Origin: Pelobates cultripes
Taxonomy: Eukaryota; Chordata; Amphibia; Anura; Pelobatidae
DNA: 64,000 nt
Reading direction: 5' to 3'
Assembly (NCBI GenBank): GCA_933207985.1
Contig: OW240921.1
Coordinates: 92,823,537 to 92,887,536 of the forward strand
Position 1 is the first letter of the stretch; every line of letters starts with the position of its first letter. The position numbers and the translations under genes are program-made. Below the pieces are notes generated by a model. That model was given only the letters and a program-made list of their open reading frames with translations, was not told where the DNA came from and did no database searches. Below are positions 41,086 to 61,440 of this stretch, in pieces.

Positions 41086-41367
41086 AGAAATTGTTTAATG
41101 TGGGGGCGGAGCTAGCAAACAAACTACTCAGACGCCATTTTTAGCAACTCCTCAAGATCGCCATAAAATCGCCCTTATTCGAACCTATCCAGCTCCCTAG
41201 ACCTGATATTCCTCCCCATCGCATCAACCCGCATCGACAGATGCCATTTTTCCAGCGGCCCAAACAATCTAAGCCAGTCCAGGGCCTTCCTTACTCTGTC
41301 GAACACAAACCTGGCCATGCTCCTTGGCGGCTCAGTACTAGAGGAATCGGCGTAAACATCCTTCCCG

Positions 41368-42640: not shown

Positions 42641-43905
42641 CGGAGATAACGTGGATAATACTAAATAAAGGTCTTAAATATGCCCCCACAAAAACTTTTA
42701 ACCCTTTTTTGGCATATATAGACATAAATAAATTTGTAAGAAATGCTACTATAAAAAGATTTTATATAAGCAAAAATAATACGATAAATAATCAAGTTAC
42801 AGATATTAACAATACTAGTGACGATATGTATGTCAAAAGCTCTCTAAAAAATAAAAGTAAGTTTTATCCGTCAAATTTTAAGTCAAGCACAATAGATATA
42901 TTTGAAAAAAAGGTATCTAAAGGTATAAGAAGTTTGAGTGAAAAATATATAGGAGATAAAAATAACCTAACAAAAAGGGAGAGAGAAAGCCTTAAAGAGT
43001 TACAAAACGATGATACTATTGTTATAAAACCAGCCGATAAGGGGGGAGGTTTAGTGATTTTATCTACAGAAATGTATGAAGAGGAGGCCTTTAGACAATT
43101 GAATGATATAAAGACATATGTTAAACTTACAAGGGACCCCACCTCTGATATCAAAAATATGTTAGAGAAATTTCTGAATCAAGGCAAGGATAAGAATATA
43201 CTAAGTACGGATGAATTCAACTACTTAAACAAGAAATTTCCAAAGATACCGGTCATATATTTCCTACCGAAGATTCATAAAGACACTGAAAGACCCCCAG
43301 GAAGACCTATTGTCTCCGGTATAGATTCTATCCTATCAAATATGTCAGAATATATAGACATTATGTTACAGCCTTATGTAAAATTGTCCCGATCCTATCT
43401 TAAGGATACTATGGACCTACTTAATAAATTAGAATCAATAGAGTGGGAGGATGATTATGTACTCATAACTTGTGATGTACAATCTCTATACACTATAATT
43501 GAACATACAAGGGGTTGTAAAGCTGTAAAAACTATTCTAGAGAGACAAAAAAAGATGAAAGAAGAACAGATAAATTTTATAATTGAAGGTATCTTTTTAA
43601 TTCTAAATAATAATTATTTTTGGTTTAAAGACTCGTTTTATTTACAGAAAAACGGTACAGCGATGGGGACCAGGTTCGTGCCCAGCTATGCCAACCTCTT
43701 CATGACCGAGTGGGAAGAGAGAATGGTGTGGAGCGGGCATGGCTGGGTGGGGAGCCTGGTGGCCTATTTCCGCTATATAGATGATCTCCTTTTTATATGG
43801 AAAGGTCCAATCTCTACAGCAAAACTTTTTTTAGACTTTTTAAATACAAACAATGATGGTATAGTTTTAAAAGCAGATTTTAGTCAGACCCACGTCACTT
43901 TTTAG
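42580..43905 (+). pseudogene. PLE reverse transcriptase half (frameshifted from the endonuclease)
   Basis: 441 codons are open. The conserved order is ILNKGLKYAPT, VIKPADKGGGLVIL (KPADKG at 43027-43044), YFLPKIHKDTERPPGRPIVS, LITCDVQSLYT (motif A), NGTAMGTRF (motif B) and YFRYIDDLLFIW (motif C; YIDD at 43774-43785). KPADKG and the DVQSLYT form are typical of Penelope-like reverse transcriptases rather than LINEs or retroviruses. All catalytic aspartates remain. The frame ends in a stop at 43903-43905, in a T run where one missing T accounts for the shift to the downstream frame. The first codons (before about 42640) are probably not native to the protein. A GC-rich patch covers motifs B and C. 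Confidence 0.88.
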
Positions 43906-43907
43906 AT

Positions 43908-44915
43908 TTGGATATTTATATTAAAGATAAGAGATTAAATACAAAAACTCATTTTAAACCGGTTCATGTTAATAATTTTATTGGAACAGATAGCTGTCAT
44001 TATAGGAGCTGGCTTGACAGCATCCCTAAAAGCCAATTCCTTAGATTGAAGAGAAATTGCTCCGATGCTAATACTTTTAAAACTCAGGCGAACATGATGA
44101 AGAATAAGTTTATTGAAAAAGGTTACGATAAAGAGAAAATAGATAAAACTATAGAAAATATTACAAACACAGATAGAAAGGATCTTCTAACCCAAAATAA
44201 GGGTTCAAAAAATACTAAGAATAATGGGAAAGAGTTTGTATTGCCTATTGTCTTAGATTATAATAATAAAAATAAACAAATAAAAAAAGTAATTAGGAAT
44301 AACTGGCATTTATTGAAAGAAGATCCTGTATTAGGAAAAATTATTCCAGACCAGCCAAAAATTGTATTTAGAGGAGCTCCAAATTTGAGAATGCAACTCA
44401 CACAAAATTATACAAAACAGAAAAAGTCAGAAGTTATAAATAATTTTATGAAAAACAAGAATGGATTTTTTAGATGCAATTGCTGCGTAGCGTGCAAAAA
44501 AACTAAAAAAATGGACCGATATATCCATAGTTTTAAATCAAATAATACAGATAAAAGTTACAGTATTAAAAACACAATTACATGCATGAGTAAAAACGGG
44601 ATATATTTATTAGAATGTCCATGCGGACTGCAATATATAGGGAGAACTATAAGACCGTTGAAGGTCAGGATTGGGGAACATTGTAGAAACATAGAAAAAG
44701 GGCTAAAAACCCACTTGGTATCCTCACATTTTGAGTTACATGGTAATGATCCACAGCACTTAAAATTTATGGGCATTTCAAAATTGTCCCAACACTGGAG
44801 AGGTGGTGATATAATTAATAAATTGGGCAAGAAAGAAATGGAGTGGGTCTATTTTTTAGACACACTACACCCTAAAGGTCTTAATGCAGAGTTTGATCTT
44901 TTTAATTTTTTATAA
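43908..44915 (+). pseudogene. PLE C-terminal half: RT thumb, linker, GIY-YIG endonuclease
   Basis: 335 codons. It begins with DIYIKDKRLNTKTHFKPV, the continuation of the polymerase after motif C, then a lysine-rich linker, a cysteine cluster (RCNCCVACK, about 44474-44500, with a further C in NTITC), and the GIY-YIG nuclease: GIYLLECPCGLQYIGRT (about 44598-44648), RIGEHCRN with its conserved arginine, and KEMEW carrying the probable catalytic glutamate. This domain cuts target DNA in Penelope-type elements. The length and domain order are normal. The apparent start is not a true initiation site, since the frame is the shifted continuation of the reverse transcriptase. Confidence 0.88.
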
Positions 44916-45337: not shown

Positions 45338-45557
45338 ACTACAATACCAGATCGTGATACATCACTTCCGGGTGACGAAACAGTGTTTATAGAGAAATGG
45401 ACAATGTAAACTACATGTCCCATCAACCATTGGGAGATACGCTGATGCCACTTCCGGGAGCCGCACACAACATGAATGGAGGGATACTACATATCCCAGC
45501 AAGCTATGAAAAGACTCGCTGACATCACTTCCGGGTGACACACGCGACCCGGAAGTA
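45338..45557 (+). promoter_or_regulatory. Three ZNF143-like plus ETS-like site modules in the PLE terminus
   Basis: ACTACAATACCAG (45338), ACTACATGTCCCATC (45410) and ACTACATATCCCAGCAAGC (45486) resemble the ZNF143/STAF motif ACTACAnnTCCCA. Each is followed by CACTTCCGGG (45363, 45449, 45526), the reverse of the ETS site CCGGAAGTG, and a forward CCGGAAGTA sits at 45549-45557. Module spacing is 72 and 76 bp. The block lies just upstream of the TATA box at 45603. Binding is inferred from motif match alone. Confidence 0.55.
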
Positions 45558-45602
45558 GGAAGTGAAATTGCATCAGGACTAAATCACATTAATCAGGAAC
45601 AC

Positions 45603-45612
45603 TTATATAAAG
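45603..45612 (+). promoter_or_regulatory. TATA box of the PLE terminus
   Basis: TTATATAAAG lies about 30 bp upstream of the hammerhead motif. A start about 30 bp downstream would place the ribozyme at the very 5' end of the transcript. The relic at 60283 shows the same spacing. Confidence 0.6.
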
Positions 45613-45637
45613 AGGACTCCATTGAATTTTGGACTTA

Positions 45638-45681
45638 TTACTTCTGAAGAAGCCCCAGACCGGGCGAAACGCATTAAGTAA
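45638..45681 (+). ncRNA. Hammerhead ribozyme motif (PLE type)
   Basis: Stem I is TTACTT (45638-45643) with AAGTAA (45676-45681). The core CTGAAGA is at 45644-45650, stem II is GCCC/GGGC (45652-45655 with 45662-45665), GAAA is at 45666-45669 and the triplet ATT at 45673-45675. Stem III is minimal. An extra A follows the CTGAAGA core, as in the copy at 4307. The stem I sequences of the two copies differ completely yet both pair, which supports a conserved structure. Confidence 0.75.
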
Positions 45682-45791
45682 GAGATCTGATACTTTTATT
45701 ACATATTTTTTATTTTGTAACAATAAAGTTATAGTTTTTACTACTTTATTTGTTGTTCCTGATACATCTTGAATCCTGACTTATATCCTTT

Positions 45792-45857
45792 GGTGGGGAT
45801 CATACCACCACATGCTGTCTATACCAGAGCAAGATATTTGCTCTGAAATTTGTAAGT
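45792..45857 (+). other. Two-hairpin/GTAAGT module, PLE copy 1
   Basis: Hairpin 1: GGTGG (45792-45796) with CCACC (45805-45809), loop GGATCATA. Hairpin 2: CAGAGCAA (45825-45832) with TTGCTCTG (45838-45845), 8 bp perfect, loop of 5 nt. GTAAGT follows at 45852-45857. Located about 110 nt after the hammerhead. Confidence 0.75.
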
Positions 45858-45989
45858 AGGATACTTTTCCTTTATTTGCACACTTTTTAATAGATATACT
45901 ACACTATTGGATTTTATTTCTATTTTTATCTTTCCATATACCACTGTGGAGGATTGGATACCGCATTATACCATCACTTGATATCCTGA

Positions 45990-46053
45990 GACGGGGATTA
46001 TACCGTCTAGGCGCTATACGGCAGAGCTCTGAGTAGCTCTGCAAAGTGTGAGT
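45990..46053 (+). other. Two-hairpin/GTGAGT module, PLE copy 2
   Basis: Hairpin 1: GACGG (45990-45994) with CCGTC (46003-46007), loop GGATTATA. Hairpin 2: GCAGAGCT (46021-46028) with AGCTCTGC (46035-46042), 8 bp perfect, loop of 6 nt. GTGAGT follows at 46048-46053. It starts 198 bp after copy 1. Confidence 0.75.
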
Positions 46054-46247
46054 GAGTCTTTTATAAGCTTTTATATACTCTTATTTCACTTGACATATTG
46101 CACTATTATTGTTCTGTACTTTTTTGTCTTGAAGGTTTTATACATTCCTAATTAGAGGACTCTCTGTATGTATATATTTTAATTATTATTTGCACTGTTT
46201 GGGCGCGGTTTACCACTTTTGTCTCTTCTGTAATACTACTACTCCGC

Positions 46248-46788
46248 TACATCCGACATGCAAGCAGTCAAAGTACGCATAACCTCAGAGGAGGAAACCC
46301 TCAAGGACACTCAGAATGACCTTATAGTCTTCAAAATTTCCATGCAGCAGCTCTAATCACAGCAAATGGCCCTGGCCATCAAATGACAGCCATGGAAGAT
46401 CGACAGTGCCAAAATTACAATTTGAGGCATACAGGCCGAAATAGCAGCTGACGAACTCCCACACTACATCAGGAGACTGCTAGCAACTAGTCTACCACAT
46501 CATGTGGCCAAGAAAGTGGCTGTAGATGGAGCGTACCACATAGATGGCCCGGCCACATGCTCACCCTCTCTAAGCAGAGATGTTATCCTCTGGTGCCAAT
46601 CCTACCCAGATAAAAGCCTAATCATGCAAGCCCTGAGAGGAAAAGCACAAATGGCTATCAAGGGCACATCTCTCTCCTATCAGGATCTCACGAGGGCCAC
46701 ACTCCAATGGCGCAAGACCCTTGGACCAGTCACCATGAAACTGAGAACTGCAGGAGTAGCCTATAGATGGGGACACCTGGCTCTGTAA
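46248..46788 (+). pseudogene. L1-type ORF1, coiled coil to C-terminus
   Basis: From the right edge of the nested insert, SDMQAVKVRITSEEETLKDT continues the coiled coil. Then come GIQAEIAADELPHYIRRLLA, the RNA-binding C-terminal domain with VDGAYHIDGPA, SRDVILWCQSYPDKSLIMQA, YQDLTRATLQWRKTLGPV and LRTAGVAYRWGHLAL, ending at 46788. The order matches transposase_22 ORF1 proteins. Three in-frame stops occur before 46440. The open part from 46504 (94 codons) is the most conserved domain. Confidence 0.75.
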
Positions 46789-46824
46789 CGGTCACCCACA
46801 ATAGAATTACCCACACACTTACTT

Positions 46825-46925
46825 AGAAACATAGAAACATAGAATGTGACGGCAGATAAGAACCATTCGGCCCATCTAGTCTGCCCAATTTTCTAAATAG
46901 TTTCATTAGTCCCTTATCTTATAGT
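46825..46925 (-). mobile_element. CR1-like LINE 3'-end fragment
   Basis: About 100 bp identical in type to the CR1 3' ends at 21595-21745 and 22210-22362 (reverse-complement motif CATTCGGCCCATCTAGTCTG). It is inserted within the L1-type element. A short TTACTT flanks both sides (about 46818-46823 and 46926-46931). Confidence 0.8.
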
Positions 46926-47794
46926 TACTTCTGTGGAAGAAACGACCAACTTCTTAGAATCCATGGAACTAGCTGATCCTAATTCTCACCCAACTGCAGG
47001 GGTATCAGGAGTGTCCTGGAACCCCACTACCATCACCCCCTTTGTGCTGAGAGCTGGAGGCCCACAGACCACAGTAACCTGATCACAGCATGGGGGAATC
47101 ATAGTGATCGCCAGAGTTTGACTAACAGCAGTTTCTGTGCAATTATGTCCAATATGCTGGTTCTGAAAAGTTATTGTTCTCTCCTCACTTTATTAAGACC
47201 ATAATTTTCTTTTATCTACTTATCTCTCGCTAATATGAGGACTAAGAGCCGACAACTACAATACCCAACACGCAACATAGAGGCGACTTTACCCACATAG
47301 ACTGACAGATGATGGAGAACACTTCCAAACCCCTCCCCTCCATCCCCCCCAGTACCCACATAGTTAGGGGTAATCGAACCTACGGTTGAGGCATTCTCAC
47401 ACCACTACTAATCCTGACTAGACACTACCACTCACTCACACACAATCTCTAATACTACACTCTGCCTTTCCCTAAAACCACGCACCTCAATACGGGGTAC
47501 AATACTTCTTCATCTACGCTCACCTTATGCACCAATAACGCTATGTCCCTCTGTTACCTTCACAAGCATAACTCTCACATCACACAGGTAAACCTCAGAT
47601 GATATTCACACACAACCCTGGCATTCTTATGATCACTCCTTACGAGGACCCGGCTGATACTCCTGTAAAATGTAAAATAGTACTTTGTCCACATCAGGTA
47701 TATATCTATGCATGTCTTTCATTCTGTAATGATGGTTTTAATTGCTTACTGTGTCTGATAAAGCACTACAAAAATAAAAATAAAAATTATAAGA
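46926..47794 (+). other. 3' region of the ORF2-less L1-type element
   Basis: This holds the residue of the ORF1 3' flank and an untranslated tail, C/A-rich at 47280-47580. No reverse transcriptase or endonuclease motif can be read on either strand. It ends with the A-rich tail and the right target duplication. Confidence 0.6.
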
Positions 47795-47809
47795 AGAAAT
47801 TGTTTAATG

Positions 47810-48510
47810 CATTTAATGTATTTGGAAAAATATGCTAGTTGTGGCAATTTATTTCTTTAGAACTGCTTGTGTCAGGTAATGTACATTGTCAGGGTCGTCT
47901 GTTCACTTGAATGAAAAAAATGGTAGGCACGCCTTTTAGACGGTTATCAAGGTAATGTTTTCTGCTTGGGTTTCATCAAGTCTCCTGTTAAAGAGATATT
48001 CTAATTTATTTTAACATAATATCCATTTTTCTTTAAAAAAGTTGATAGTGACAGAATTTGGCCACGGCCCAGCCATAAATACACCAATTTAATGGAATAT
48101 AATTCCTAATAACATTTATGTCGATCTAATTTTGAATGCGTAGCTAATTTTCTCTCTAAGAAAACTGAAACCTAATAATTTGATGTCAAACAACTGGCAC
48201 CTTGAAATTCTGACTCACAGTAGCTATTTTTGCAAACAAATCATCCAACTAAATTTTTGCTGCATAGGTCCCTTTGTCCTTACTTTAGTTTACAGCAAAA
48301 TGATTGTATCAAAGGCAAAATAGCATCATATTTTGTAAGTGCCATTAACAGAAAAGGATTAAGCTCCCATGAGCCTCTAGGTTAGGTTACCTTTTTGACT
48401 CTCCCAACCCCACCCCTTCATTCTTCACATAGGGATGGTAAATGGGGACAAGCAAATTAATGGTTCTGTGGCCTCTGTTTAACACTTGGGTCCAAAGGGG
48501 CCACCTAGGT
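47810..48510. other. Non-coding stretch, nothing recognised
   Basis: No gene or repeat family recognised. Confidence 0.5.
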
Positions 48511-49009
48511 CAGGAGCGTACCTAGAAAATTTGGCACCCGGGGCGGGTCCTATTTTTGGCATTCCCCCTTACTCCCCCCCTCAACTTTAAATATAAAAAC
48601 AACTAAAAAAATGTTTTAATGTATTTAGCACTAAGCAATGTTTGTGATGTATTGAATGTATGCATGTTTTTGTATGGAGTATATGTGAGTGAATGTAGCG
48701 GTGTGTTTGTATGTAGTGTTGGAGTTTGAATGCAAGCATGCATTTGTGTGTTGTGTGGTATTTGTGGTATTTGAATGCAGTGGTATGGTTATATATAATG
48801 GTGGGGTTTGTATGTAGTGTTGACGTTGAAATGCAAGAGTGTATTTGTGTGTAGTGTTGGCTAAATTTTTAGATGTCTGCACATATACACATACACGGAC
48901 ATAGACACCCAAACACAGATACACATTGACTACACATTTGCATATAATTCACATTAGCCACCCAGATTTCGTGTTGTGGGCTGGCTGACACCTCTTAATT
49001 TCAATCTTT

Positions 49010-49289
49010 GTTTAGCAGATAACTCCTCTATTTGCTATCATTTGTGGGATTGCCATATTTAAGGACACCAAATAAGGTGCTATCTGCTAAACAGTACCCT
49101 CATTTGGTATCTTTTAAATATGGAAATCTCACATACGGGCACCAATTCAGGGAATGATCTACTAAACAGCTAGGATAAAAAAAGCCCTTTTCTTATTTTC
49201 AGTTGTTTAGTAGATAAATCCCTTATTTGTTATCCTTATGTGGGATTGCAATATTTGAGGACAGGAAATAAGGGAGCTATCTACTAAAC
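49010..49289. repeat. Three consecutive palindromic units
   Basis: GTTTAGCAGATA...TATCTGCTAAAC (49010-49092), a related middle unit ending ATCTACTAAAC (about 49085-49167), and GTTTAGTAGATA...TATCTACTAAAC (49205-49289) are each near-palindromes of 80-90 bp. They share CAAATAAGG-like and GTGGGATTGC.ATATTT blocks; the middle unit is in the opposite sense. Confidence 0.7.
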
Positions 49290-50185
49290 ACATACGCAGA
49301 GATACACACAATCACACACATAATCACAGATATACACAAGCACAATCACTGACCCACACACATACAATCACAGACACACAATCACATACACACACAAACA
49401 TTACATACATACACACATTTAATAAGTAAGAGGTCCACCCAGCCTCCCTACCTTGCTCTAGAAGGGCTGGAGTGGATCCTCAGACCCTGGTGGTCAGTGG
49501 TTGCTGCTGGGATCTCTGTGCTCTTTTGCACAGGTCCATCGCACGCCCTGTAATGACGCCGAGGCCGTGATGAAATCATATCCTGGCTGCCGGCTCACTG
49601 CAGGACGAAGACCGTCAGACACAGTCAGATGCACACAGTCCCACACACAGTCACTCACACACAGTTACAGGCAGACAGTCAAATACACAGGCAATCACAC
49701 AGGCAGACAGTCACACATACACAGATTCACAGACAGTCACACACACAATCACAGACAGTCACACATACACACAACAGTCACACATACACACAACACAGTC
49801 ACAGACAGTCACACACACACACACACAATCACAGGCAGTCACACACACACACAGTCAGTCACTCACACACACACACACACAATCACAGGCAGACACACAC
49901 ACACACACAGAGTAACACAGACAATCACAGGCAGACAGTCACACACACACAGTGACACACACAATCACAGGCAGACAGTCATACATACACATAACACAAT
50001 CACAGACAGTCACACACACACACACACACACACAGTCAGACAGTCACACACAGAGTCACACAGACAATCACACAGACAATCACAGGTAGACAATCACAGG
50101 CAGTGACACACACACACAAGCAGACAATCACACACAGTCAAAGACAGTCACAATCACAGTTACACACACACAGCACACACTCTCT
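49290..50185. repeat. CA-rich degenerate microsatellite arrays
   Basis: Two arrays (about 49290-49420 and 49617-50185) of CACACA mixed with CAGTCACA, CAGGCAGACAGTCA and ACAATCACAG words. Long plus-strand ORFs here (to 201 codons, T/H/S/Q-rich) are by-products. Confidence 0.9.
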
Positions 50186-50565
50186 CACTTACAGTAAGCT
50201 TGGGCTGGAGGAGGTGTGGATTCAGTCCCTCTGGCTCCTGTGCTGTAGTTGGGGAAGCAGGGACTCCTTCCTGCTTCCCCTCTGTGTGCAGCAGTATAAG
50301 ACTGCATTTAGCTCCGCCCCCCCATCCGGTTTGGCTCCGCCCCCGCAGACAATCTGGCTCCGCCCCCAAATCTCTGTGCAGGTCTCCTGCTATATTCCCA
50401 GCCCCTGCGTGTGAGCTGTGTCGGCTGCCCAGTGCCTTTGCTGCTATGGCACCTGGTGCAGCCACACAGCTCACAGACTCCTAAGCCTGGCCAGCCCTGG
50501 TGGCACCCCCCTACCTGATGGCACCCAGGGCGGACCGCCCAACCCCCCCCCTTAGTACGCCACTG

Positions 50566-51437
50566 CTTATGGTTATTCCTGGTCTGGCCATTAATCTATA
50601 CAGTAAATCGGTCTTACATGGAGGAGATAACTCGGAAAAGTGAAGAGAAAGACTGAGTTTCAGGAAAGGGGAAGCATGCTGACACTTGTTCTATGCAGAG
50701 GCATTTATAACCACAAATAGGCATTTTCCCTGCAATACCGCATAAGTCTGTTCACGTTATATTCATTTTTATCCTCGATACTGATGTTGGGTTCCTCAAA
50801 GAACTGCAGTCTTATTCCCCCATAAACTCCCAAACTGCGAACAGTAAATTTCAACACTCAAAACTGTCCACTTTCATTCAAATATGTAAAAACAAATAAC
50901 TGTGAACAGGGGATGTGAATTACAGGAAACTTCTACTGAACCTTATCATCTCAATATAGAAATGATCAACGTAACAAAATGAAAAATGTAATGCTATAGC
51001 ATATGATATTTACTTTAGTCATTAGGACTTAGATTTTTATCATCAACATGTTCAAGTAAATTGTTTCACATGCAAAACCATGTATAATAAAATCTGTATT
51101 TAAAATAGGTATGATTTTTCTTTAAAAAAAATTTTTTACCACTTCTATCGCTACAAACAACAAAAGAACACTGTAAACAACATTTCCATTACACTTCATT
51201 CTACTATGCAGGTATGGTTCTTTGAGAATACAGACACATTGTTGACACAGTGATTTTCCTACACTCTCATCAAGTACAATCTTTTATCTCTTTTTTCTTT
51301 TTAATAGTAAGTCACTGAAAACAAAGATCAACAGCCTTGATAATTTGTAAATATATAAATCCAATACATTAATATAAATAATATAAGTATTAGATTGTTT
51401 TCTACGGGGGCCTGAATATTAGGCAACTTTTATGAGC
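50566..51437. other. Non-coding stretch, nothing recognised
   Basis: AT-rich, no gene or named repeat. Confidence 0.5.
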
Positions 51438-51485
51438 TTAATGGGATACTATAAGTGCCAGGAATAGAATGCTGTATATACTATA

Positions 51486-53063
51486 CACCCTGTTCCAAAT
51501 TATTATGCAAATTCTATTTAAGTGTCACAAATATTAAATAGTTTGTTTTTCAGTTTAACTCATGGATGGCATTGTGTCTCAGGGTTCTTTTGATCACTGA
51601 AAACAAGCTTGGACACCTGTGATAATTAGATTGTCAGGTGAGCCCAATTTAAGGAAAAACTACTAAAGGAGGGTGTTCCACATTATTAAGCAGAGCATTT
51701 CACGCAATATGGGGAAGAAAAAGGATCTCTCTGCTGCCGAAAAGAGTGAAATAGTTCAATGACTTGGACAAGGTATGAAAACATTAGATATTTCACAAAA
51801 ACTTAAGCGTGATCATCACACTTTTAAGAGATTTGTGGCTGATTCAGAGCACAGACGGGTTCGTGCAGATAAAGGCACATTGAGAAAGATTTCTGCCAGA
51901 TCCATGCATGGGATCAAGAGAGACGCTGCTAAACTACCATTACATAGCAGCACACAGATATTTGAAGCTGCTGGTGCCTCTGGAGTCCCACGGACATCAA
52001 GGTCTAGAGTCCTCCAGAGTCTTGCAACTGTGCATAAACCTTCTATTCGGCCACCACTAACCAATGCTCACAAGCAGAAACGGCTGCATTGGGCAGAAAA
52101 ATACATGGAGACTAATTTTCAAGCAGTCCTGTTCACTGATGAGTGCCATGCAACCCTGGATAGTCCAGATGGATGGAGTAGTGGATGGTTGGTGGATAGC
52201 CACCCTGTTCCAACAAGGCTGCGTGTCAGCAAGGCGGTGGTGGAGTCATGTTTTGGGCCGGAATCATGGGAAGAGAGCTGGTCGGCCCCTTAAGGGTCCC
52301 CGAAGGTGTAAAGATGACCTCTGCAAAGTATGTGAAGTTTCTGACTGACCACTTCCTTCCCTGGTACAGAAGGAAGAACTATGCTTTCCGTAATAAAATC
52401 ATCTTCATGCATGAAAATGCACCATCTCATGCTGCAAAGAATACCTCTGCATCAATGGCTGCTATGGGGATAAAAGGAGAGAAAGTCATGGTGTGGCCTC
52501 CATCCTCCCCTGACCTCAATCCTATTGAGAACCTTTGAAGCATCCTCAAGCAAACTATCTATGAGGGTGGGAGGCAGTTTACATTCAAACAGCAGCTCTC
52601 GGAGGCTATTCTGACATCTTGCAAACAAATTCAAGCAGAAACTGTCCAAAAACTCACCAGTTCAATGGATGCAAGACTTGTAAAGCTGCTATTAAATAAG
52701 GGGTCCTATGTTAAAATGTAATGTGACATGTTAAAATGTTTAAAAAGTTAAAATGTTGTTATAAGTTTGATTGAAATAGCGTTTGATTTCAGTAAATATG
52801 CTGCAAACACAACAAATGACAATTTTCAGTTCTTTACAACCTATAAAGTGTTTTGAAACTTACTGTGCGTAATAATTTGGAACAGTGCATTGCAAGTTTT
52901 TTATGTTTAAAAAAAATACTGTTATTGTTAGGAGGTTTGTTCAATAAAATTTGAATTGTACTCTTAATAGTTGATAACATGAGAATTATGCTGACCGTTA
53001 TTTACATGAATTATTTAGGTAAATGAGAAAAATATCATTTGCATAATAATTTGGAACAGGGTG
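51486..53063 (+). mobile_element. Tc1/mariner-superfamily transposon (Tc1-like), 1578 bp
   Basis: The target duplication is TA (51484-51485 and 53064-53065). The terminal 27 bp (51486-51512 and 53037-53063; outer part CACCCTGTTCCAAATTATTA) are perfect inverted repeats. Inner, imperfect copies of the same motif lie at about 51674-51692 and 52863-52885, giving the IR/DR layout (two direct repeats per terminus) known in several Tc1-like elements. A single transposase gene fills the interior. Confidence 0.95.
51709..52721 (+). pseudogene. Tc1-like transposase, inactivated
   Basis: The start at 51709 reads MGKKKDLSAAEKSEIVQ, then a TGA stop (51760-51762), then the paired-type DNA-binding helices (TLRKISARSMHGIKRDAAKL). 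The catalytic domain follows: LFTDECHATLDSPDGW with the first aspartate; after a frameshift near 52250, FMHENAPSHAA, where the usual second aspartate of HDN is glutamate; then SPDLNPIENL with the third acidic residue and a TGA in place of the usual tryptophan (about 52537). It ends at 52721. The length fits a 330-340 residue family. At least two stops, one frameshift and an altered catalytic residue show that it is dead, even though the termini are perfect. Confidence 0.92.
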
Positions 53064-53500
53064 TATATGCTGTAAATGCTATAGCTCCCTCTGCCTCCCC
53101 CCTCCTTCGCACCACCCCCCTCACCCCAAGTAAATAAAGGGTTAAATAAAGGGTTAAATAAAGGGTTAAAAACCCTTTATTTACTTACCTTTTCCGAGTG
53201 CAGATGTCCCTCAGCACTGGGCCAATGCTCCACCCCATCCGACGGCCCGCAATGAGTGGGTGATAATGCTCATGCGCGGCAAATGCCACGCGCGCATTAG
53301 ACCTCCCCATAGAAAAGCATTGAATCAATGCTTTCCTATGGGGAAAAATCTAACGCTGAATGTCCTTATGCAGAGTGTGAAGACGTACAGCGTCAGATAC
53401 CGGACCAAAGATCTGTTTCGATTCAGGTAGCCATCTAGTGGTAGACAGCCATTGTGGGCAGACTTTGAGCTGCAATGTAAAAAAAATCTGAAAGTATAAA

Positions 53501-53814
53501 ACAAAGCATAATAGAACAAATAATAATCTTAGATTAAAAACTGATATTTGCATTTAGAAATATGTGGTTTATTGCGAAAGCAGTAATGGGTGAGTGCAAA
53601 ATATAGTAAAAAAAGACACCTGATATTAATCCTTACTTTTGTAAAGATTTTTTATCTTAGGGGAAGCTCAGCAGTTACTCTGGATCCCACTGTTCTACCA
53701 TCCTACAGCTAACCTGGGTATTCTGACAGACACCGGCATCAGGTAAGAAAAAAAGCAGTACTACCTTATTAATTAAAAATCAAAATTGTAAAGTGCTTAG
53801 AGCTTTCCGGAATG
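53501..53814. other. Non-coding stretch, nothing recognised
   Basis: Short AT-rich spacer between the T2 copy and the LINE remnant. Confidence 0.4.
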
Positions 53815-54470
53815 TTCTGTGGTGCTAACCTAAGCTGCATAGTTACATAGCATTCTATCCCCCTCTGAGATGCCTTTTTACTTAAGAAAATAAATACAGT
53901 TTTTCAAACTGTTCTTCATTAGAGATGTCGCGAACCGTCCGCGAACGTCTCGCGAACGGTTCGCCACGGTTCGCCACGAGCTGTTCGTGGCGAACTCCGG
54001 TCAGCTGACACGTCCCGGCCAATCTCCAGCAGATCCTCCCTCCCAGACCCTCCTACTTCCTGGACAACATGGATGCTGTCCAGGAAGTAGGAGGGTCTTG
54101 GAGGGAGGGTCTGCTGGAGATTGGCTGGGACGTGTCAGCTGACCGAAGTTCGCCGCGAACAGCTCGTGGCGAACCGCGGCGAACCGTTCGCGAGAAGTTC
54201 GCGAACGGTTCGCGACATCTCTATTCTTCATATGTACCGTTTTCCATTCCCCTTATTAATTTTGTAGCTCTTCTCTCCACTTTTTCTAGTTCTGCAACAT
54301 CTCTCTTTAAAACTGGAGAACAAAATTGCACAGCATTATCAAGGTGGGTTCTTACCATTGATTTACAAAAGGCAAAATTATGTTTTAATCCCATGACCAA
54401 TAGTTGTTTTGCTGTTTGTCTTAAATGGTTTTTATTTTGATTGCAAAGTAATATCGAACATCTCACAAAT
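53815..54470 (-). pseudogene. Rex1/CR1-like LINE reverse transcriptase C-terminus, split by a MITE
   Basis: The minus strand from 54466 reads KSMVRTHLDNAVQFCSPVLK, DVAELEKVERRATKLIRGM and NGTYEE. It then meets the hAT MITE (53920-54223 plus the 8-bp duplication) and, beyond it, continues with the F.KLYLFS..KRHLRG text expected to follow (YEERLK.L.lFSLE.RRLRGD in related proteins). It is a short C-terminal piece of a jockey-superfamily LINE with stops. The left limit is approximate. Confidence 0.75.
53920..54223. mobile_element. Palindromic hAT MITE, 304 bp
   Basis: The perfect 8-bp duplication TTCTTCAT lies at 53912-53919 and 54224-54231. The ends are TAGAGATGTCGCGAACCGT and its inverted partner. 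The whole element is one near-perfect hairpin of about 150-bp arms that meet at CCAGG/CCTGG near 54070, and it is rich in CGCGAAC words and so in CpG. It interrupts the LINE remnant. Confidence 0.93.
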
Positions 54471-55241
54471 TAAGACAATAGACATGTTCGCCTAAGTAGA
54501 GGCATAGCTGGTCTGTATGTAAATAGTATATACGTAAACAAATCAGACCCCGTGTGTGTTCGGAACAAAAATTTTCAGTACATCAAGGTAAACATGTGGG
54601 TCAAAAGATGTCATATAATGATGTAACCAAATGTCGACAATTATAGACAAAAGTAACTGACATGGCAATATTTGTTTTGCTGTTTGGACACATGCAACAA
54701 CTGTTTATAGATACAGTGTTAGTGTCAATAGGGAAAGAGTTAAACGTCTATTCTCTTATAACTACCATCAATCAAAGCCATGTCAACGTGGCCAAACCCT
54801 TGCAGAATATGATGAATAATGATGGCTTCACAACTAGACAGCCAAGCATGGCTATGAATTCTAGGTCCCCCACCTCCTAATGAGAGACTGGAAATTCTTA
54901 TACACAAGACTGACATATCTGAATTTAAAGTAAGAGTCACACATAGCAGATTGACATCCAATATTCTGGAAAAACGAAACATTGTGACTAAATTGCATGT
55001 ACTCTAGCACTGCAAAAAATAGATTCTTACGTGTCTTTTCGCACATCTTCCTCCTAGAAGCAGAACAAAAACACAATTGTACAAATAAAGTGAAGGCATC
55101 ATTATTTTTCAGTCCTTAAAAGCAAAGTCCTCATTAATTGTGGTACCTGTAAGTAGAGATTTTTTTTTATATTTATTGGTGGATTTTGCAGTAGTAAAAG
55201 TTAGTGAACAAATGTCATAACACCATATTTAGTATTACACA
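54471..55241. other. Non-coding stretch, nothing recognised
   Basis: No repeat family or gene recognised. Confidence 0.5.
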
Positions 55242-55921
55242 TATGATGTGTGTTAGGAAAAAAATCCAGCCAATTTTAATATAATGAGTTTGAACGGTTT
55301 GCATGATAACGATGTAACCTGGCAGCCAAGGAGAGTGGACTGGAATGTGCATGCGTGAACAATGACGACTTCACTGTACAAGACAGTGGGGGCGCTAGAT
55401 GCTGTTGAGTGAGCATTTTTACTGTGTGGCCTTTGCATTCAAAATGGCTGAGCGAGTAGAGCAACGAATATGCATCAAACATTTTGTTTAAGATTGAACA
55501 CTCCTCCACGGATGATTCAGAAGGCTTTCGGGAACAATGCAATGAGTACAGCGCAAATAAAAGTGTGGCATTAATGCTTTAAAGATGGTCAAGAATCTGT
55601 TGAAAGATTTGGCACCCTGCAACTTCTGGGTTTTCCAAAAACTAAAATCACCTTTGAAAGGGAAGAGATTTCAGACTGTCAATGAAATTTAGATAAATAC
55701 GACGAGGCAGCTGATGGCGATTCCAACAAAGGAGTTTGCAGAGTGTTTTGAACAGTGGAAGAGACACAGGGAGAACTGTGTGAGGTCCCAAGGTGCCTAC
55801 TTTGAAGAGGGTGGAGGCGTCATTGTCCTATGTACAATGTTTTTTGTATCTTGTATCTTCTTCAATAAATGTCTCTATTTTTCATATTAAATGGCTGGAT
55901 ACTTTCTGGACAGACCTCGTA
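55242..55921 (+). mobile_element. mariner-like transposon, internally deleted
   Basis: The right end GGATACTTTCTGGACAGACC followed by TCGTA (to 55921) and the left end TATGATGTGTGTTAGGAAAA (from 55242) are imperfect inverted repeats with TA at the edges. At about 680 bp it is roughly half of a full mariner, and the missing part is the middle of the transposase. Confidence 0.75.
55444..55845 (+). pseudogene. mariner transposase relic (N- and C-terminal ends joined)
   Basis: MAERVEQRICIKH at 55444 is the N-terminal DNA-binding start of a mariner transposase, and decayed text follows (HSSTDDSEGF, frameshifted). At about 55605 it jumps to LAPCNFWVFPKLKSPLKGKR and CFEQWKRHRENCVRSQGAYF, the C-terminus. 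The first two catalytic aspartates are deleted. The third, normally in a P-S/C-D-F/Y context, is asparagine here (PCNFW). Also has stops and frameshifts. It cannot be active. Confidence 0.85.
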
Positions 55922-58181
55922 CACTGATGTTATAGAGTATTAGAAAGAAGGAAAGTTTCTAAAATTACTTTAGGTAACCTAAGAAGTATTTGGTAAAGTT
56001 AGTATTCCATTAAGGAGAACATGGTTATTTGCAGGGTTGAAAAGTATTATCGTCTTATAATTATAAAAGTGATGCAAAGGTGATGTTGTTGTTTAAGTGA
56101 GCGGGTAAAAACGGCACACCTTCAGGATAAGCCGTTGTGTCGTAGCATTGTTCAGATAGACTGACTGTTGCAACAAATATCTTAGTAGTCAACTAGCCAT
56201 GTAGTAATGATCAAAATGCATGAGATGAAAGCATAGGGATGGACCAGTCATGTACCAAAGGGTTGTAATCCTAAGACCCTTGATAGTGTCACAAGTAAAC
56301 ATGTAGGACTGATTTCTTTCAACTTAGTAAGGGTTTACACTGCTAAGTGGATATCAATTTCCAATAGTCTTCAATTGCGGAAAAGCTATTCAGTAAGTGT
56401 AGTAAACACTTACTCTGCTACAAGAACACAGACATGCTTTTTTGAAGTGTTTTCTTTTTATGTGGAACCATCAGAACAGTTGTTTTAAAAAAAGATTATT
56501 CTCTGAACAGTGATCTGCAGTGAGATGACAATCAAGTTGAAAAAAATGATTGAAAAAATGCCAAATGAGAAAAAACTTGGCACCTGTGTTGGGTTTAAAG
56601 TTTCCATCCAGTCGTCAGATGACCAGAACGCACTGTTCGGTGAAATAACCCATGTATTAACTAGTTATGAATCCGATTCCCAAGTCATTAACCTAAGGAG
56701 CCCTAGGGGGTTAAAATGACTGGTTACCTATTGAATGGCATCATCTAAGCCCTATATTTGTTCAGGAAGACTAGAATGATGTCATAGATGAGAAAAAGAT
56801 GTCCCCAGCCCAACTGATTATTTTAATGAGCACATAGCTGAAATTTCCTAGCACAAACACACTTACAAACAGAGGTTTATTTCTCCACATAATCCCCCAG
56901 CCTTGCCTAGCTTGTGACTGTGTTTGTAAGAGTTGCTGTAAACAAAATTCTACCTTTCACAAAGATGTCACTTATTGCACTGGCCTTGGGTCTTGCTAGA
57001 ATTAGTGTTTACAGCTACATTACCTAACCCATTGCTAAGCACTAGAGAACACTGGGGGGTCTGTTTGCTAAACAGTGGGCTATGGTGATTGGACAGACAA
57101 TTTAGACCAAAATAGAACATTTAGGGAAAAATAAACTCCATCTTGGCTGAGATGAGAATATTTTATAACTCTGGAAGGTCGGCCTAAATTTTCCAAGTTG
57201 GTGTGCAGTCCATAACCCACTATTCAGTAATATCACTTTGAAGATTCTTCCTCACAGAGTGTAAAACAAAGGCTGCTGATTTAATACAATCTACCAGGAC
57301 TAGACACGATATTTACTAGGAGAATTCGCAAAATTAATTGCTTGCCCTTAAAAGTCACGTCTCAAGTATAGTTATTAAATTACAAGGACAGATGGGATAT
57401 ACATGGAAAAAAAATACAGGTTATCAAATTTCAAAGTCTACAAAAGAAAAATGGTAGTAGGTGACCTAATTAGTTCTTACCTACACGTTTTCACTGATCA
57501 CAGTTTAAATAATAGATGTAGTGTGTCATCAAGGTCTTTCTTTTCAACAGGATAGCCACATTGAGAAAGGTCTTTTCACTCAGTGAGTGCATGGAAAAAT
57601 TAATTGAGAGGAAAAACAAGAGAAATACAATTGTATCTTAAATTACATGTCCGTCCCTTTGAACAGGGCCAATTACCTCTGCCAACTGGCCTATCCCCTT
57701 TACCCCCTACCATCGGTGTCCTGATTCTCTGTTTGGACATATGGAAACGTATTTTAGTAAATTGCAATCCACCGGCTTGTTCTCTTTACTCCCCTTCCCA
57801 ATGGCGTCCTGATTTTTTTGCCATCACAATCCAGTTCAGCCCTGGCAGAGTGATGTCATGCATTGCATTAGAAACAGAAGTACTGATTCTAATGTCACTA
57901 ATTTGAAACGCATTTCAGTTCATTATGCACCATCATGTTACACTTTGTAAAGATGTGATATGAGCCAGGGACAGGCATAGACAGAGTGTTGATGTATAGC
58001 ATGCTTTTCAATGCACAAATACCCCAACATTGTTAAAAGAAGTTCATTTTACGTAGGGCTTAAGAGAGGTGACATAAATTCGTTGTCATTGAAGCATTCT
58101 ATATAAATATTTACAATGGTTCATACAGATATAGCGCAGTAAGGTTTAACTGGCACACACTGTGACTGTAACATAAATTCC
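55922..58181. other. Non-coding stretch, nothing recognised
   Basis: About 2.3 kb without a supported gene or repeat. Short ORFs (for example plus 57604-57906) show no domain. Confidence 0.5.
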
Positions 58182-58289
58182 TTAAAGAGCAACTGTCATA
58201 TTTTTGTTCATTAATTTGCTCCAGAAAAGCCTTGACACATTTACATCGATGTTTAATTCATGTAAGTAAATTTTCTGTAACAACACATT
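58182..58289 (+). mobile_element. Possible T2-type terminus fragment
   Basis: TTAAAGAGCAACTGTCATA at 58182 resembles a T2-type left terminus. No matching right end. Weak. Confidence 0.3.
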
Positions 58290-58955
58290 ATTTATGCATA
58301 AAATATTTTACCAGGAAGGATACATTGACATTTCTGTCCTGGGTCCACAAAACATTGCATTGATACATTAGGGTACAATAAAATACAAAAACAATATTAA
58401 TACACAATAAATACAAAATTTAACATAGAACAGGTAGAAAATATATAATCAATCATGACAGGTGCATTCTGTTTTGAGATATGTAGAGAGGGATCTCTTA
58501 AAGGATTTTAGGCCTGGAGAAGATTTGAAAGTGTGCAGGAGGTCGTTCCATAATTGCGGTGCTCTGTAGGAGAAGGAGGATCGGGCCGTTTTCTTTTTGT
58601 ATTGAGGTAGACTAAATAAAGTGCTGGTACTGGATCGGAGGTTATAGGAGGTGGGAACAGCCGGGGAAAACATTCTCTCAGGTAGTGTGGGAGCTTCCCA
58701 GAAAAGATCTTAAACACAAGGCTGGAAAAATGAAGGGTGCGTCTGGATTCCAACGACAGCCAGTTTACTTATTTTAGCATGTCACAATGGTGGGTCATGT
58801 AATTACATTGTAGCACAAACGGCAGAACAAGTTATACAATGTATTAAGTTTATTAAGATGGGTTTGCGGTGCAGGTGCATATACTACAGCCCCATAAGCA
58901 ATTATTGGCATCAGCTTTTGCTGTACAATCTTTTCCTTCAAATAATAATAATGAA
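58290..58955 (-). pseudogene. L2-like LINE reverse transcriptase C-terminus and 3' end
   Basis: The minus strand reads ESRRTLHFSSLVFKIFSGKL, LPHYLRECFP and, in an overlapping frame, SYNLRSSTSTLF, SSFSYRAPQLWNDLLHTFKS and LKSFKRSLSTYLKTE. LPxYL..., YNLRSS and SF.yRAP.LWN..P are the conserved C-terminal words of L2-type and related LINEs. One frameshift separates the halves. Downstream (lower coordinates to about 58290) is an A-rich 3' region with the block TTTTACCAGGAAGGATACAT. The 5' part is missing. Confidence 0.75.
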
Positions 58956-58974
58956 TAATAATGCATTGTAAGGG

Positions 58975-59475
58975 TACCTAAAAAGTGGGGTGCAGGAGTG
59001 AGACAGTCAGTGTTGCAGGGGTTACTTGAGATCAGAGCCAGAGACGACCTAATAAGTGGGGTGCAGGAGTGAGACAGTCAGCGTTGCAGGGGTTACTTGA
59101 GATCAGAGCCAGAGACCACCTAATAAGTGGGGTGCAGGGGTGAGACAGTCAGTGTTGCAGGGTTTACTTGAGATCATAGCCAGAGATTACCTAATAAGTG
59201 GGGTGCAGGGGTGAGACAGTCAGTGTTGCAGGGGTTACTTGAGATCAGAGCCAGAGACGACCTAATAAGTGGGGTGCAGGGGTGAGACAGTCAGTGTTGC
59301 AGGGTTTACTTGAGATCATAGCCAGAGATTACCTAATAAGTGGGGTGCAGGGATGAGAGAGTCAGTGTTGCAGGGTTTACTTGAGATCATAGCCAGCGAT
59401 TACCTAATAAGTGGGGTGCAGGGGTGAGACAGTCAGTGATGCAGTGGTTAATTGAGATCAGAGCCAGAGGTTACA
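58975..59475. repeat. Tandem satellite, 71-bp unit, seven copies
   Basis: GTGGGGTGCAGG recurs at 58985, 59056, 59127, 59198, 59269, 59340 and 59411, exactly every 71 bp. Two unit types alternate (GATCAGAGCCAGAGACGACC and GATCATAGCCAGAGATTACC), suggesting past amplification of a multi-unit block. Confidence 0.95.
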
Positions 59476-59750
59476 TGTGGATGAGAGTAGAGGGATGCCA
59501 GATTAGTTTACATTAGTCCAGGTGTGTGGAAGAATGCTGAGTTACTTCCCTTGGTAAACTTCTAGGATTCATGGCACTTATTGGAAGTTGGCACTTGATG
59601 GATAGTGGCACACAGATGGAATGTGGCCTGCGCTCCCTACGGTCCCTATGGTCACATGCATCAATCTTGTGCTCAAACTCCCAATACTCTTGGACTGCAA
59701 TGGCTCTAGTATTCAATCCCATATATGTAACTCCCCCTGCCCTCCTATAT

Positions 59751-59866
59751 ATGGCCGCCGCCATTTGCGGCTACTCTATCCTCCTATCAATCTTATTGAC
59801 TTCCTTAACATGGCCGCCTCCATTTTCAGCCACTTTATGACCTTCCTAATATGGCCGCCGCCATTT
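59751..59866 (+). promoter_or_regulatory. Three YY1-like sites
   Basis: ATGGCCGCCGCCATTT (59751-59766), ATGGCCGCCTCCATTTT (59810-59826) and ATGGCCGCCGCCATTT (59851-59866) match the YY1 motif GCCGCCATTTT and are partly palindromic. ATGGCC and ATGGTC remnants follow near 59879 and 59951. Binding is inferred. Confidence 0.5.
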
Positions 59867-60046
59867 GCCCTCCACAATATGGCCACTAATACTCACAGCT
59901 AACCCTTACCCTCCCCTTAAGTGTTACATTACACTTTAGACCTCCACAATATGGTCGACAATACTCGCGGCTAATCTATCCTTTTTCCTGCTGATCACCG
60001 GTATAAAGTGAGTAAATACACGCCCTTCCTGTTACCATTCGCACTG

Positions 60047-60060
60047 ACTACATATCCCAT
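60047..60060 (+). promoter_or_regulatory. ZNF143-like site
   Basis: ACTACATATCCCAT resembles ACTACAnnTCCCA and matches the site at 45486. It lies about 235 bp upstream of the TATA box. Confidence 0.4.
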
Positions 60061-60282
60061 GTAGCATTGCAACCTATGATGCTTTTGCATCACGTGACTA
60101 ATTTTCCACTGCGATTTCCACTTTATTTAACCCTCATTTTTATTATAATTTATGATATTTAACCTTTATACTATGTAAAGAATGTAATGTAATACCTCTT
60201 ATGTACTTTTAATATGTTTATAATATGTTGAATTCTAATTGGAAATTATAATTTTGGCGCCAATTTTAAACACAGTTATCCC

Positions 60283-60290
60283 TATATATA
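60283..60290 (+). promoter_or_regulatory. TATA box of PLE relic 2
   Basis: TATATATA, about 35-40 bp before the degenerate hammerhead core, the same spacing as at 45603-45638. Confidence 0.5.
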
Positions 60291-60318
60291 CCTCTATAGC
60301 CAGGTTGAATGTTTTTTA

Positions 60319-60352
60319 TTCCTTCTGAAAAAGCCTGCAAACGTGAAACACG
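60319..60352 (+). ncRNA. Degenerate hammerhead core
   Basis: CTTCTGAAAAAGCCTG then TGAAACACG keeps the position and outline of the PLE hammerhead. However, the core reads CTGAAAA (the invariant G of CTGANGA is changed) and stems I and II do not pair. A decayed copy, not expected to cleave. Confidence 0.5.
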
Positions 60353-60478
60353 ATATGGACTTTTAATATTGTGTATTTTAACTTATTAAAGATGTTATGG
60401 TTACCTTTTTGTGCCAAACATCTTTGTTATATGCACTTTTCCTGGCATTTTAAAGTTTTATACTTCAAGTAATCCCAA

Positions 60479-60541
60479 GGTGGGGATAATACCACCAACG
60501 CTGAGTTCATAGAGCAGTTAGCCTGCTCTATCCTTGTAAGT
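60479..60541 (+). other. Two-hairpin/GTAAGT module, relic copy 1
   Basis: Hairpin 1: GGTGG (60479-60483) with CCACC (60492-60496), loop GGATAATA. Hairpin 2: ATAGAGCAG (60509-60517) with CTGCTCTAT (60523-60531), 9 bp perfect, loop of 5 nt. GTAAGT follows at 60536-60541. Confidence 0.75.
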
Positions 60542-60654
60542 ATAATTTTACTTCCTTTTATTGGAGATTATTCCATTTTATTGAGAGCACTATCGGTTGC
60601 CTTTTTTATTCCTTCCTGATTGTGTGGACGTGGTGGACAGTTGCTGCATATCCT

Positions 60655-60734
60655 TTAACCCCTTAAGGACCAAACTTCTGGAATAAAAGGGAATAATGAC
60701 ATGTCACACATGTCATGTGTCCTTAAGGGGTTAA
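60655..60734. mobile_element. piggyBac-like MITE, 72 bp, TTAA flanks
   Basis: TTAA (60655-60658 and 60731-60734) flanks a 72-bp body, CCCCTTAAGGAC...GTCCTTAAGGGG. The paralogous module at about 60917-60930 keeps the uninterrupted site (CATCCTTTAAAGCAGG), so the insertion point and the TTAA duplication can be read directly. The second copy is at 24688. Confidence 0.9.
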
Positions 60735-60799
60735 AGTGGGGATTATACCGCTGTACGCCCATACTGCTAGAGCTGGCTATAGCTCTTTCAAATGTAAGT
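60735..60799 (+). other. Two-hairpin/GTAAGT module, relic copy 2
   Basis: Hairpin 1: AGTGG (60735-60739) with CCGCT (60748-60752), one U-G wobble, loop GGATTATA. Hairpin 2: AGAGCT (60769-60774) with AGCTCT (60781-60786). GTAAGT follows at 60794-60799. Confidence 0.75.
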
Positions 60800-60925
60800 G
60801 TTCTATCGTTATTTTATACTTTTATCTGATTGTATCCAACAATCTGCACTATCACGTGCCACTGTCTCCTGTCTTTTACATAATCTTGGTGTGGACATAG
60901 TTGACAATTGCCGTCCATCCTTTAA

Positions 60926-60990
60926 AGCAGGAATTATACTGCTGTACACCTATACTGCTAGAGCTGGCTATAGCTCTTTTAAACGTGAGT
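60926..60990 (+). other. Two-hairpin/GTGAGT module, relic copy 3
   Basis: Hairpin 1: AGCAG (60926-60930) with CTGCT (60939-60943), loop GAATTATA. Hairpin 2: AGAGCT (60960-60965) with AGCTCT (60972-60977). GTGAGT follows at 60985-60990. It starts 191 bp after copy 2. Confidence 0.75.
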
Positions 60991-61255
60991 GTTCCATCGC
61001 TAGTTTTTTACTTATAAAAGACTGTACTTAACAGGCTTCACTATCACTTATCCCTGTCTCTTGTCTTCCATATTATCTGTGTTCAAGTCGAACTGAGCAC
61101 AATACATCCTATAAAGTACTGACTTTCATATTTGGATAATAAGAACTTACACTGTGAGACTGCTTTGCACTAGCCCTATCCTTGCTTGTGTGCTAGATAC
61201 TGTTGTATCACTAGATTTTTTACTTGTGGCGCAGCCCTTTCCTTTTCTCTTGTCT

Positions 61256-61440
61256 TTACAGGAAGTGTTTAGGAAGTCTGTGCAAGTCACATGCAGGGAG
61301 GTGTGACTAGGGTCCATAAACAAAGGGATTTAACTCCTAAATGGCAGAGGATTGAGCAGTGAGACTGCAGGGGCATGATCTATACACCAAAACTGCTTCA
61401 TTAAGCTAAAGTTGTTCAGGTGACTATAGTGTCCCTTTAA
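61256..61440 (-). mobile_element. T2/Kolobok-type MITE fragment
   Basis: Ends GTGACTATAGTGTCCCTTTAA, with TTAA at 61437-61440. The preceding CTTCATTAAGCTAAAGTTGT matches the T2 interior. The left limit is approximate. Confidence 0.7.

Follow-up and report, generated by a model that had tools for sequence, protein, structure and literature searches.

A covarying RNA module repeated in the leaders of two Penelope-like elements of Pelobates cultripes

Why would a Penelope-like element (PLE) carry several copies of the same small folded RNA in its leader? The question is raised by 64,000 nucleotides of the frog Pelobates cultripes (GenBank assembly GCA_933207985.1, contig OW240921.1, forward-strand positions 92,823,537 to 92,887,536), a stretch that we call the window and within which all positions are counted. 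An earlier note on this DNA described a two-hairpin module, with compensating changes in its stems and a splice-donor-like hexamer at its end, in the leaders of two PLEs. The dataset is five copies of that module, M1 to M5, in two damaged elements of this one window. We believe the module is an RNA structure kept by selection. With somewhat less than even confidence, we favour the reading that each copy would be one junction RNA domain, a platform for the element's own reverse transcriptase (RT) and endonuclease, whose binding is predicted.

The five copies read as the note had them: M1 (45792-45857) and M2 (45990-46053) in element 1, and M3 (60479-60541), M4 (60735-60799) and M5 (60926-60990) in element 2. 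The first stem, P2, has standard pairs in all 25 cells, the single U-G pair is confirmed, and four of its five pairs have changed on both sides. This covariation establishes the P2 hairpin. The loop GRATNATA and the hexamer GTRAGT are present in every copy. The second stem, P3, counted over eight pairs, is paired in 92.5% of cells and has both-side changes in two outer pairs; its core AGAGC/GCTCT is invariant and so says nothing about pairing. In 500 shuffles taken over both stems, none attained the covariation score of 0.477 and four had as many as six doubly changed pairs. Nine further pair types are unremarkable, 277 of the shuffles having at least that many. When the partners are shifted by one to three columns, the paired fraction falls from 95.4% to 24-58%. 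The two-hairpin repeat is more than chance.

These shuffles ignore the relatedness of the copies, so a separate covariance model was built from M1 and M2 alone. It recovers all three copies of the other element (M4 at E 8.7e-9, M3 at 3.0e-8, M5 at 4.1e-6), and its next match has an E of 0.23. Together with the covariation, this supports selection on RNA structure. The model of all five copies, R1, also gives a partial reverse-strand match at the M3 hairpin (E 0.0056), as a near-palindrome would. Relatedness is also the heart of one rival, a phylogenetic echo in which duplicated neutral sequence happens to form hairpins. There are just five copies in two elements, and M4 and M5 look like recent duplicates, 86% identical over 85 nt, so the copies are not independent. 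Set against this, identity between the elements is 59% in the module (235 of 395 letters) compared with 42% in the downstream spacer (113 of 266) and 36% in the 5' flank (36 of 100, with M4 contributing no letters), and stems that differ still pair. We regard the echo as highly improbable.

The relationships among the copies tell something about their history. Mismatches (with gaps in brackets) are 5 (15) for M1-M3, 9 (9) for M2-M4, 9 (0) for M4-M5, 12 (12) for M1-M2, 9 (17) for M1-M4 and 14 (7) for M2-M5. The nearest neighbour of M1 is M3 and that of M2 is M4, and M5 groups with M4. From the M2-M5 distance by itself these groups would not be apparent. They are matched by the inner P3 pair, which is A-T in M1 and M3 and T-A in M2, M4 and M5. 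These numbers are soft. Judged by these affinities, the M1/M3 and M2/M4 types were probably already distinct when the elements diverged, and M5 probably arose afterwards by duplication of M4. The recurrence every 180-198 bp that had been claimed holds for starts 198 and 191 apart and fails for the M3-M4 step, which is 256 bp. A 76-bp insert before M4 and outside the module accounts for that step, which becomes 180 without it. The insert, with ends CCCCTTAAGGAC, has a second copy at 24687-24768 that is 95% identical, and we take it to be a piggyBac-type miniature inverted-repeat transposable element (MITE). Separately, GGATAATA recurs at 61134-61141 in element 2, where about three stem pairs at most can be drawn by eye around a possible decayed sixth module; the five-copy model did not pick up this candidate.

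Are the hosts really PLEs? Element 1 has an open reading frame (ORF) that is 40% identical over 197 aa to protein P0004, which carries RVT_1 (E 2.1e-7); the ORF itself has no RT match in Pfam. Its second ORF matches GIY-YIG at E 4.4e-4 and 20.9 bits, slightly below the Pfam cut-off of 22.6. It is 51% identical to a predicted Pelobates cultripes protein and has 19 matches that include proteins of Xenopus laevis and Ranitomeya imitator. The combination of RT and GIY-YIG that marks a PLE is thus found in element 1 only, where the two ORFs differ in frame; for element 2 no coding sequence is in view. The elements align from before the hammerhead region to past the first module (45619-45966 with 60300-60649). 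That alignment has no shuffle control, and the controlled link between the elements is the element-1-only covariance model. With the ORFs of element 1 and the alignment and model match of element 2, the link of the modules to PLEs is supported. A second pseudo-LTR (long terminal repeat) is not among the repeats of 42000-48000, and element 1 is cut off on its 5' side.

The picture of two hairpins is probably incomplete, since GTRAGT can sit in a third, closing helix. In this helix, P1, the hexamer and the bases after it would pair with a strand on the 5' side of P2, and the result would be a three-way junction about 85-95 nt long. RNAfold with flanks of -20/+10 closes P1 in M1, M2 and M3 and leaves it open in M4, with its insert in place, and in M5. 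Sequences cut at P1, a choice that favours P1, close it in the minimum-energy folds of four of the five copies. Placed in one register, P1 is paired in 43 of 49 cells over the five copies (second among 120 dealings, which average 36.2). Its outer pairs x7-x10 (variants T-A/C-G; C-G/T-A/A-T; C-G/T-A/G-T; T-A/G-C) are paired in 17 of 20 cells compared with a mean of 10.2 when the 3' strands are re-dealt among the copies, and 2 of 120 dealings, the cognate included, reach 17. Since inspection guided the choice of register, register-free duplex energies are the fairer tests. By these the cognate strands rank 1, 1, 2, 2, 3 and 4 of 120 in six settings. Mean duplex energy is -7.6 kcal/mol for the modules and -4.2 at 28 other GTRAGT sites of similar geometry in the window (Mann-Whitney p 0.006, with copies that are not independent). 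Those 28 sites are the whole control; random positions gave a mean energy of 129, probably because of N runs, and were unusable. Short strands beat shuffled upstream strands in M1 (p 0.012-0.036) and M4 (0.004-0.012) and are borderline in M3 (0.048-0.08).

The conserved unit is larger than the hairpins. ATCC lies 3 or 5 nt upstream of P2 in every copy, and it is complementary to the first four loop bases, GGAT, in M1-M4. The geometry would suit an H-type pseudoknot: a 5-bp P2, a linker of 3-5 nt and NATA as the crossing loop. The ATCC/GRAT pair never covaries and its sole change is uncompensated, so the copies are only consistent with a pseudoknot, which we infer from complementarity. CACTAT is also found in all five units, 50, 53, 52, 53 and 54 nt downstream of the GTRAGT start (M1 to M5), with 38 of 42 letters identical in its columns between the elements. 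Both ATCC and CACTAT belong to the conserved unit.

CACTAT invites a rival at the level of DNA, namely that the units are tandem promoter monomers, repeats of about 190 bp with CACTAT as initiator and the hairpins incidental. Mouse L1 has promoter monomers as tandem repeats. The period of 180-198 bp, the near-fixed CACTAT spacing and a TATAAAAG at 61013, 26 bp upstream of the M5 CACTAT, all agree with this. However, a loop that stays fixed while its stem changes in compensating fashion is what one expects of RNA and not of DNA sites, and a better promoter candidate lies upstream of the hammerhead. There the window's only four ACTTCCGG/CCGGAAGT octamers are found (45364, 45450, 45527 and, reversed, 45549), presumably sites for ETS factors, followed by the TATATAAA at 45604 that we infer to be a TATA box; octamers of that type number seven on the plus strand of the window. 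Promoter monomers seem to us very unlikely.

The modules were said to lie downstream of a hammerhead motif. The position stands; the hammerhead is weak in element 1, and in element 2 only the alignment suggests one. The Hammerhead_1 match of element 1 has 15.6 bits and an E of 2.1, under the gathering score of 34, and falls short of a type I assignment; Rfam lists no hammerhead match for element 2 at E<=5. The hammerheads of PLEs are described as atypical, minimal variants (PMC7229834). The first module starts 148 nt (element 1) and 154 nt (element 2) past the CTGA of the motif.

A stack of folded RNAs behind a self-cleaving-type motif could have another purpose. Junction RNAs could block exonucleases from the uncapped 5' end that a hammerhead makes, or recruit ribosomes for cap-independent translation. 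Tandem probable three-way junctions with a possible pseudoknot, 3' of such a motif, are what this rival would want. Flavivirus exonuclease-resistant RNAs (xrRNAs) are three-way junctions and often tandem (PMC3968743). The place of the pseudoknot differs, however: in the module it would join the upstream ATCC to the P2 loop, whereas in xrRNAs a loop pairs with sequence 3' of P1. Nor is there a family match; M1 has none in Rfam at E<=10, and none of this kind appears at E<=5 in the two element regions. A further point against it comes from PAc (Poseidon of Anolis carolinensis), a lizard PLE studied in vitro, where RNA-seq reads neither begin nor end at the hammerhead ribozyme (HHR) site (PMC11167929). 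We consider this account quite unlikely.

PAc is also the best guide to the reading we favour, that of a platform for the element's own proteins. The study gives +20 to +172 as the minimal template RNA in vitro, RT starts at +111 to +118, and an HHR cut at +26 with cleavage only when protein is present (PMC11167929). Like the frog elements, PAc is a PLE with a minimal hammerhead, its RT-start region lies shortly 3' of the hammerhead, and its authors hypothesize that the RNA 3' of the hammerhead contains the protein-binding motif (PMC11167929). It differs in that its ORF begins at the hammerhead and reverse transcription begins in a stem loop rich in AC (PMC11167929), and the corresponding stretch of RNA is longer in the frog elements than in PAc. 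The element-1 modules lie between the hammerhead and the 3' end, the template-essential part in PAc, and for this reason we propose them as the place where RT and endonuclease would bind. In this proposal the leader (the pseudo-LTR) would carry domains of some 85-95 nt, each made up of the closing helix P1, the GRATNATA hairpin P2 and the AGAGC/GCTCT hairpin P3. GTRAGT and the next bases would supply the 3' strand of P1, and the loop GRAT may pair with the invariant upstream ATCC. The element's own RT/endonuclease would bind the module and position the RNA for priming; several copies may raise avidity or offer alternative start points.

A good deal weighs against this. The bare M4 module (65 nt) is predicted to fold without P2, which forms when flanks are included, and M5 does not close P1 even when its sequence is cut at P1. 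Given -45/+30 flanks, the minimum-energy fold retains P1 in M3 alone and P2 in four of five copies, with z-scores of -2.45, -1.74, -2.87, -0.85 and -0.51 for M1 to M5. P1 from short strands is no better than shuffles in M2 (p 0.378-0.62) and M5 (0.122-0.874), and with long flanks it beats them in M4 only (p 0.008, 0.043), M1 having 0.057/0.098 and M2, M3 and M5 0.12-0.25. The M5 loop, GAAT, breaks one of the possible pseudoknot pairs. A shared 3' end of the elements at the same repeat phase was dropped as a candidate, its alignment scoring 35 compared with a shuffle mean of 28 and maximum of 48. The PAc RNA, folded from +20 and from +27 to +172, gives no such three-way junction, and neither a GRATNATA loop nor GTRAGT is seen in it by eye. 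Finally, GTRAGT is kept in all five copies despite mismatched P1 partners at g1 (M2), t2 (M3) and g5 (M4 and M5), so something besides P1 seems to read it. Taking all of this together, we find P1 moderately supported overall: it is likely in M1, M3 and M4 and possible in M2 and M5. A direct reader of GTRAGT, a protein or the U1 small nuclear RNA, is likely in addition to P1.

This constancy under mispairing is the best argument for a splicing rival, which would make the units mini-exons ending in GTRAGT and followed by a short intron, with P1 hiding or exposing the donor to set how much genomic RNA stays unspliced relative to the spliced mRNA. Drosophila Penelope reportedly has an intron in its 5' untranslated region. 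Pyrimidine tracts follow CACTAT, and an acceptor-like TCCTTTTCTCTTGTCTTTACAG is seen by eye downstream of M5 (61240-61261). However, GT is preceded by T in M1 to M4 and by C in M5, never by the G of the typical donor consensus. The pyrimidine tracts are modestly enriched, 1.7-12.7% of the window's 60-nt stretches equalling them, no conserved AG or fixed acceptor is seen by eye, and CACTAT does not resemble the usual branch motif. We judge structured 5' splice sites unlikely as the explanation of the module.

Is the module a member of something already described? Rfam at gathering threshold has no match in the whole window. At E<=5 the two element regions give the weak hammerhead and four other matches far under their gathering scores. 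Two candidates over M4, CyVA-1 (60728-60785, 16.2 bits of 41.4) and mir-616 on the opposite strand (60642-60752, 16.7 bits of 100), we take as chance. Animal retrozymes also occur beside PLEs, and their own repeats carry type I hammerheads (PMC7229834); no hammerhead is listed inside the module repeats (Rfam, E<=5, both element regions). As a DNA pattern, P2-P3 has two matches in viral contigs and six in bacterial and archaeal genomes. R1 matches five of these eight loci at E<=1, the best (L007, E 0.026) with 16.8 bits where modules have 65-80, so the loci are taken as chance. A protein-guided search gave 79 pattern stretches in the viral and 33 in the bacterial and archaeal collections, and no relatives among them. 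By eye, no consistent pairing of the P3 loop with downstream sequence was seen. Among the matches listed in the open PMC literature, judged on titles and abstract openings and with subscription literature mostly outside it, no description of the module appears.

A more distant comparison is with telomerase RNA, a junction RNA with a pseudoknot that serves an RT related to those of PLEs; the module would be alike in being a junction RNA, possibly with a pseudoknot, in the service of an RT. It differs from the module in hairpin order, sequence and size, and no telomerase family is among the Rfam matches (M1 at E<=10, both element regions at E<=5). The RTs of PLEs share a clade with TERT (PMC12632851). 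It would be a long shot to suppose that in frogs a telomerase-related PLE RT grips tandem junction/pseudoknot domains to set the template start, and that GTRAGT in the closing helix acts as the switch that decides whether the RNA is spliced or reverse-transcribed. Such a system would be the analogue, in a retrotransposon, of telomerase RNA's junction and pseudoknot domains.

The coordinates of all features are given in Table 1. Some neighbouring sequences deserve mention in their own right. What we take to be an L1-like ORF1 looks continuous in translation by eye across 41100-41699 and 46250-46790, both halves with stops, and seems to be interrupted by a composite insertion, some 4.5 kb long, in which element 1 lies. 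Directly upstream of the RT ORF, 41767-42610 is solo-LTR-like by eye, with AATAAAG and CATTAAAG signals. Upstream of the element-2 hammerhead region, 59738-59979 holds five imperfect 42-nt repeats, three with GGCCGCC..CCAT cores that are presumably YY1-like, and a tandem repeat of about 70 bp (GTGGGGTGCAGG...GAGACAGTCAG) is seen by eye at 58980-59480. An ORF of 176 aa at 51763-52293 resembles a transposase, presumably of Tc1/mariner.

Table 1. Features of the two elements and their modules, in window positions
Feature	Position	Strand	Evidence
Penelope-like RT ORF, 5'-truncated degraded element 1	42577..43905	+	homology to P0004
Penelope-like GIY-YIG endonuclease ORF, other frame than RT ORF	43884..44915	+	Pfam, homology
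Promoter-like stretch, octamers ACTTCCGG/CCGGAAGT	45364..45556	+	motif positions
TATATAAA, 34 bp upstream of hammerhead match	45604..45611	+	motif position
Minimal type I hammerhead-like motif, element 1	45638..45681	+	Rfam Hammerhead_1
M1 P1 5' strand	45774..45784	+	folds, re-dealing test
M1 ATCC, possible partner of loop GGAT	45785..45788	+	
M1 hairpin P2, loop GGATCATA	45792..45809	+	fold, covariation
M1 hairpin P3	45825..45845	+	fold, covariation
M1 P1 3' strand, GTAAGT + 4 nt	45852..45861	+	duplex and re-dealing tests
M1 CACTAT box	45902..45907	+	
M2 P1 5' strand	45974..45980	+	fold, duplex test
M2 ATCC	45983..45986	+	
M2 hairpin P2, loop GGATTATA	45990..46007	+	fold, covariation
M2 hairpin P3	46021..46042	+	fold, covariation
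M2 P1 3' strand, GTGAGT + GA	46048..46055	+	duplex and re-dealing tests
M2 CACTAT box	46101..46106	+	
Approximate 3' end of element 1 (~46245), interrupted L1-like ORF1 seems to resume	46236..46250	.	translations by eye
Degenerate hammerhead-like motif, element 2 (CTGAAAAAGCC...GTGAAAC)	60325..60368	+	alignment to element 1
M3 P1 5' strand	60458..60469	+	folds, duplex test
M3 ATCC	60472..60475	+	
M3 hairpin P2, loop GGATAATA	60479..60496	+	fold, covariation
M3 hairpin P3	60509..60531	+	fold, covariation
M3 P1 3' strand, including GTAAGT 60536-60541	60533..60545	+	folds, duplex test
M3 CACTAT box	60588..60593	+	
M4 P1 5' strand, separated from P2 by insert	60635..60644	+	duplex and re-dealing tests
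M4 ATCC	60650..60653	+	
TTAA-flanked inverted-repeat insert, 76 bp, MITE-like, outside module	60659..60734	.	repeat comparison
M4 hairpin P2, loop GGATTATA	60735..60752	+	fold with flanks, covariation
M4 hairpin P3	60769..60786	+	fold, covariation
M4 P1 3' strand, GTAAGT + 4 nt	60794..60803	+	duplex and re-dealing tests
M4 CACTAT box	60847..60852	+	
M5 P1 5' strand (weak)	60903..60911	+	duplex and re-dealing tests
M5 ATCC, partner loop GAAT, one mismatch	60917..60920	+	
M5 hairpin P2, loop GAATTATA	60926..60943	+	fold, covariation
M5 hairpin P3	60960..60977	+	fold, covariation
M5 P1 3' strand, GTGAGT + 3 nt	60985..60993	+	duplex and re-dealing tests
M5 CACTAT box	61039..61044	+	

Little is known of how Penelope-like RTs, relatives of telomerase, recognize their RNA, and the in vitro study we found concerns the lizard element (PMC11167929). 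A covarying tandem domain 3' of a hammerhead would give RT-RNA recognition a defined and mutable target. It would also give a motif by which the leaders of vertebrate Penelope elements could be classified.

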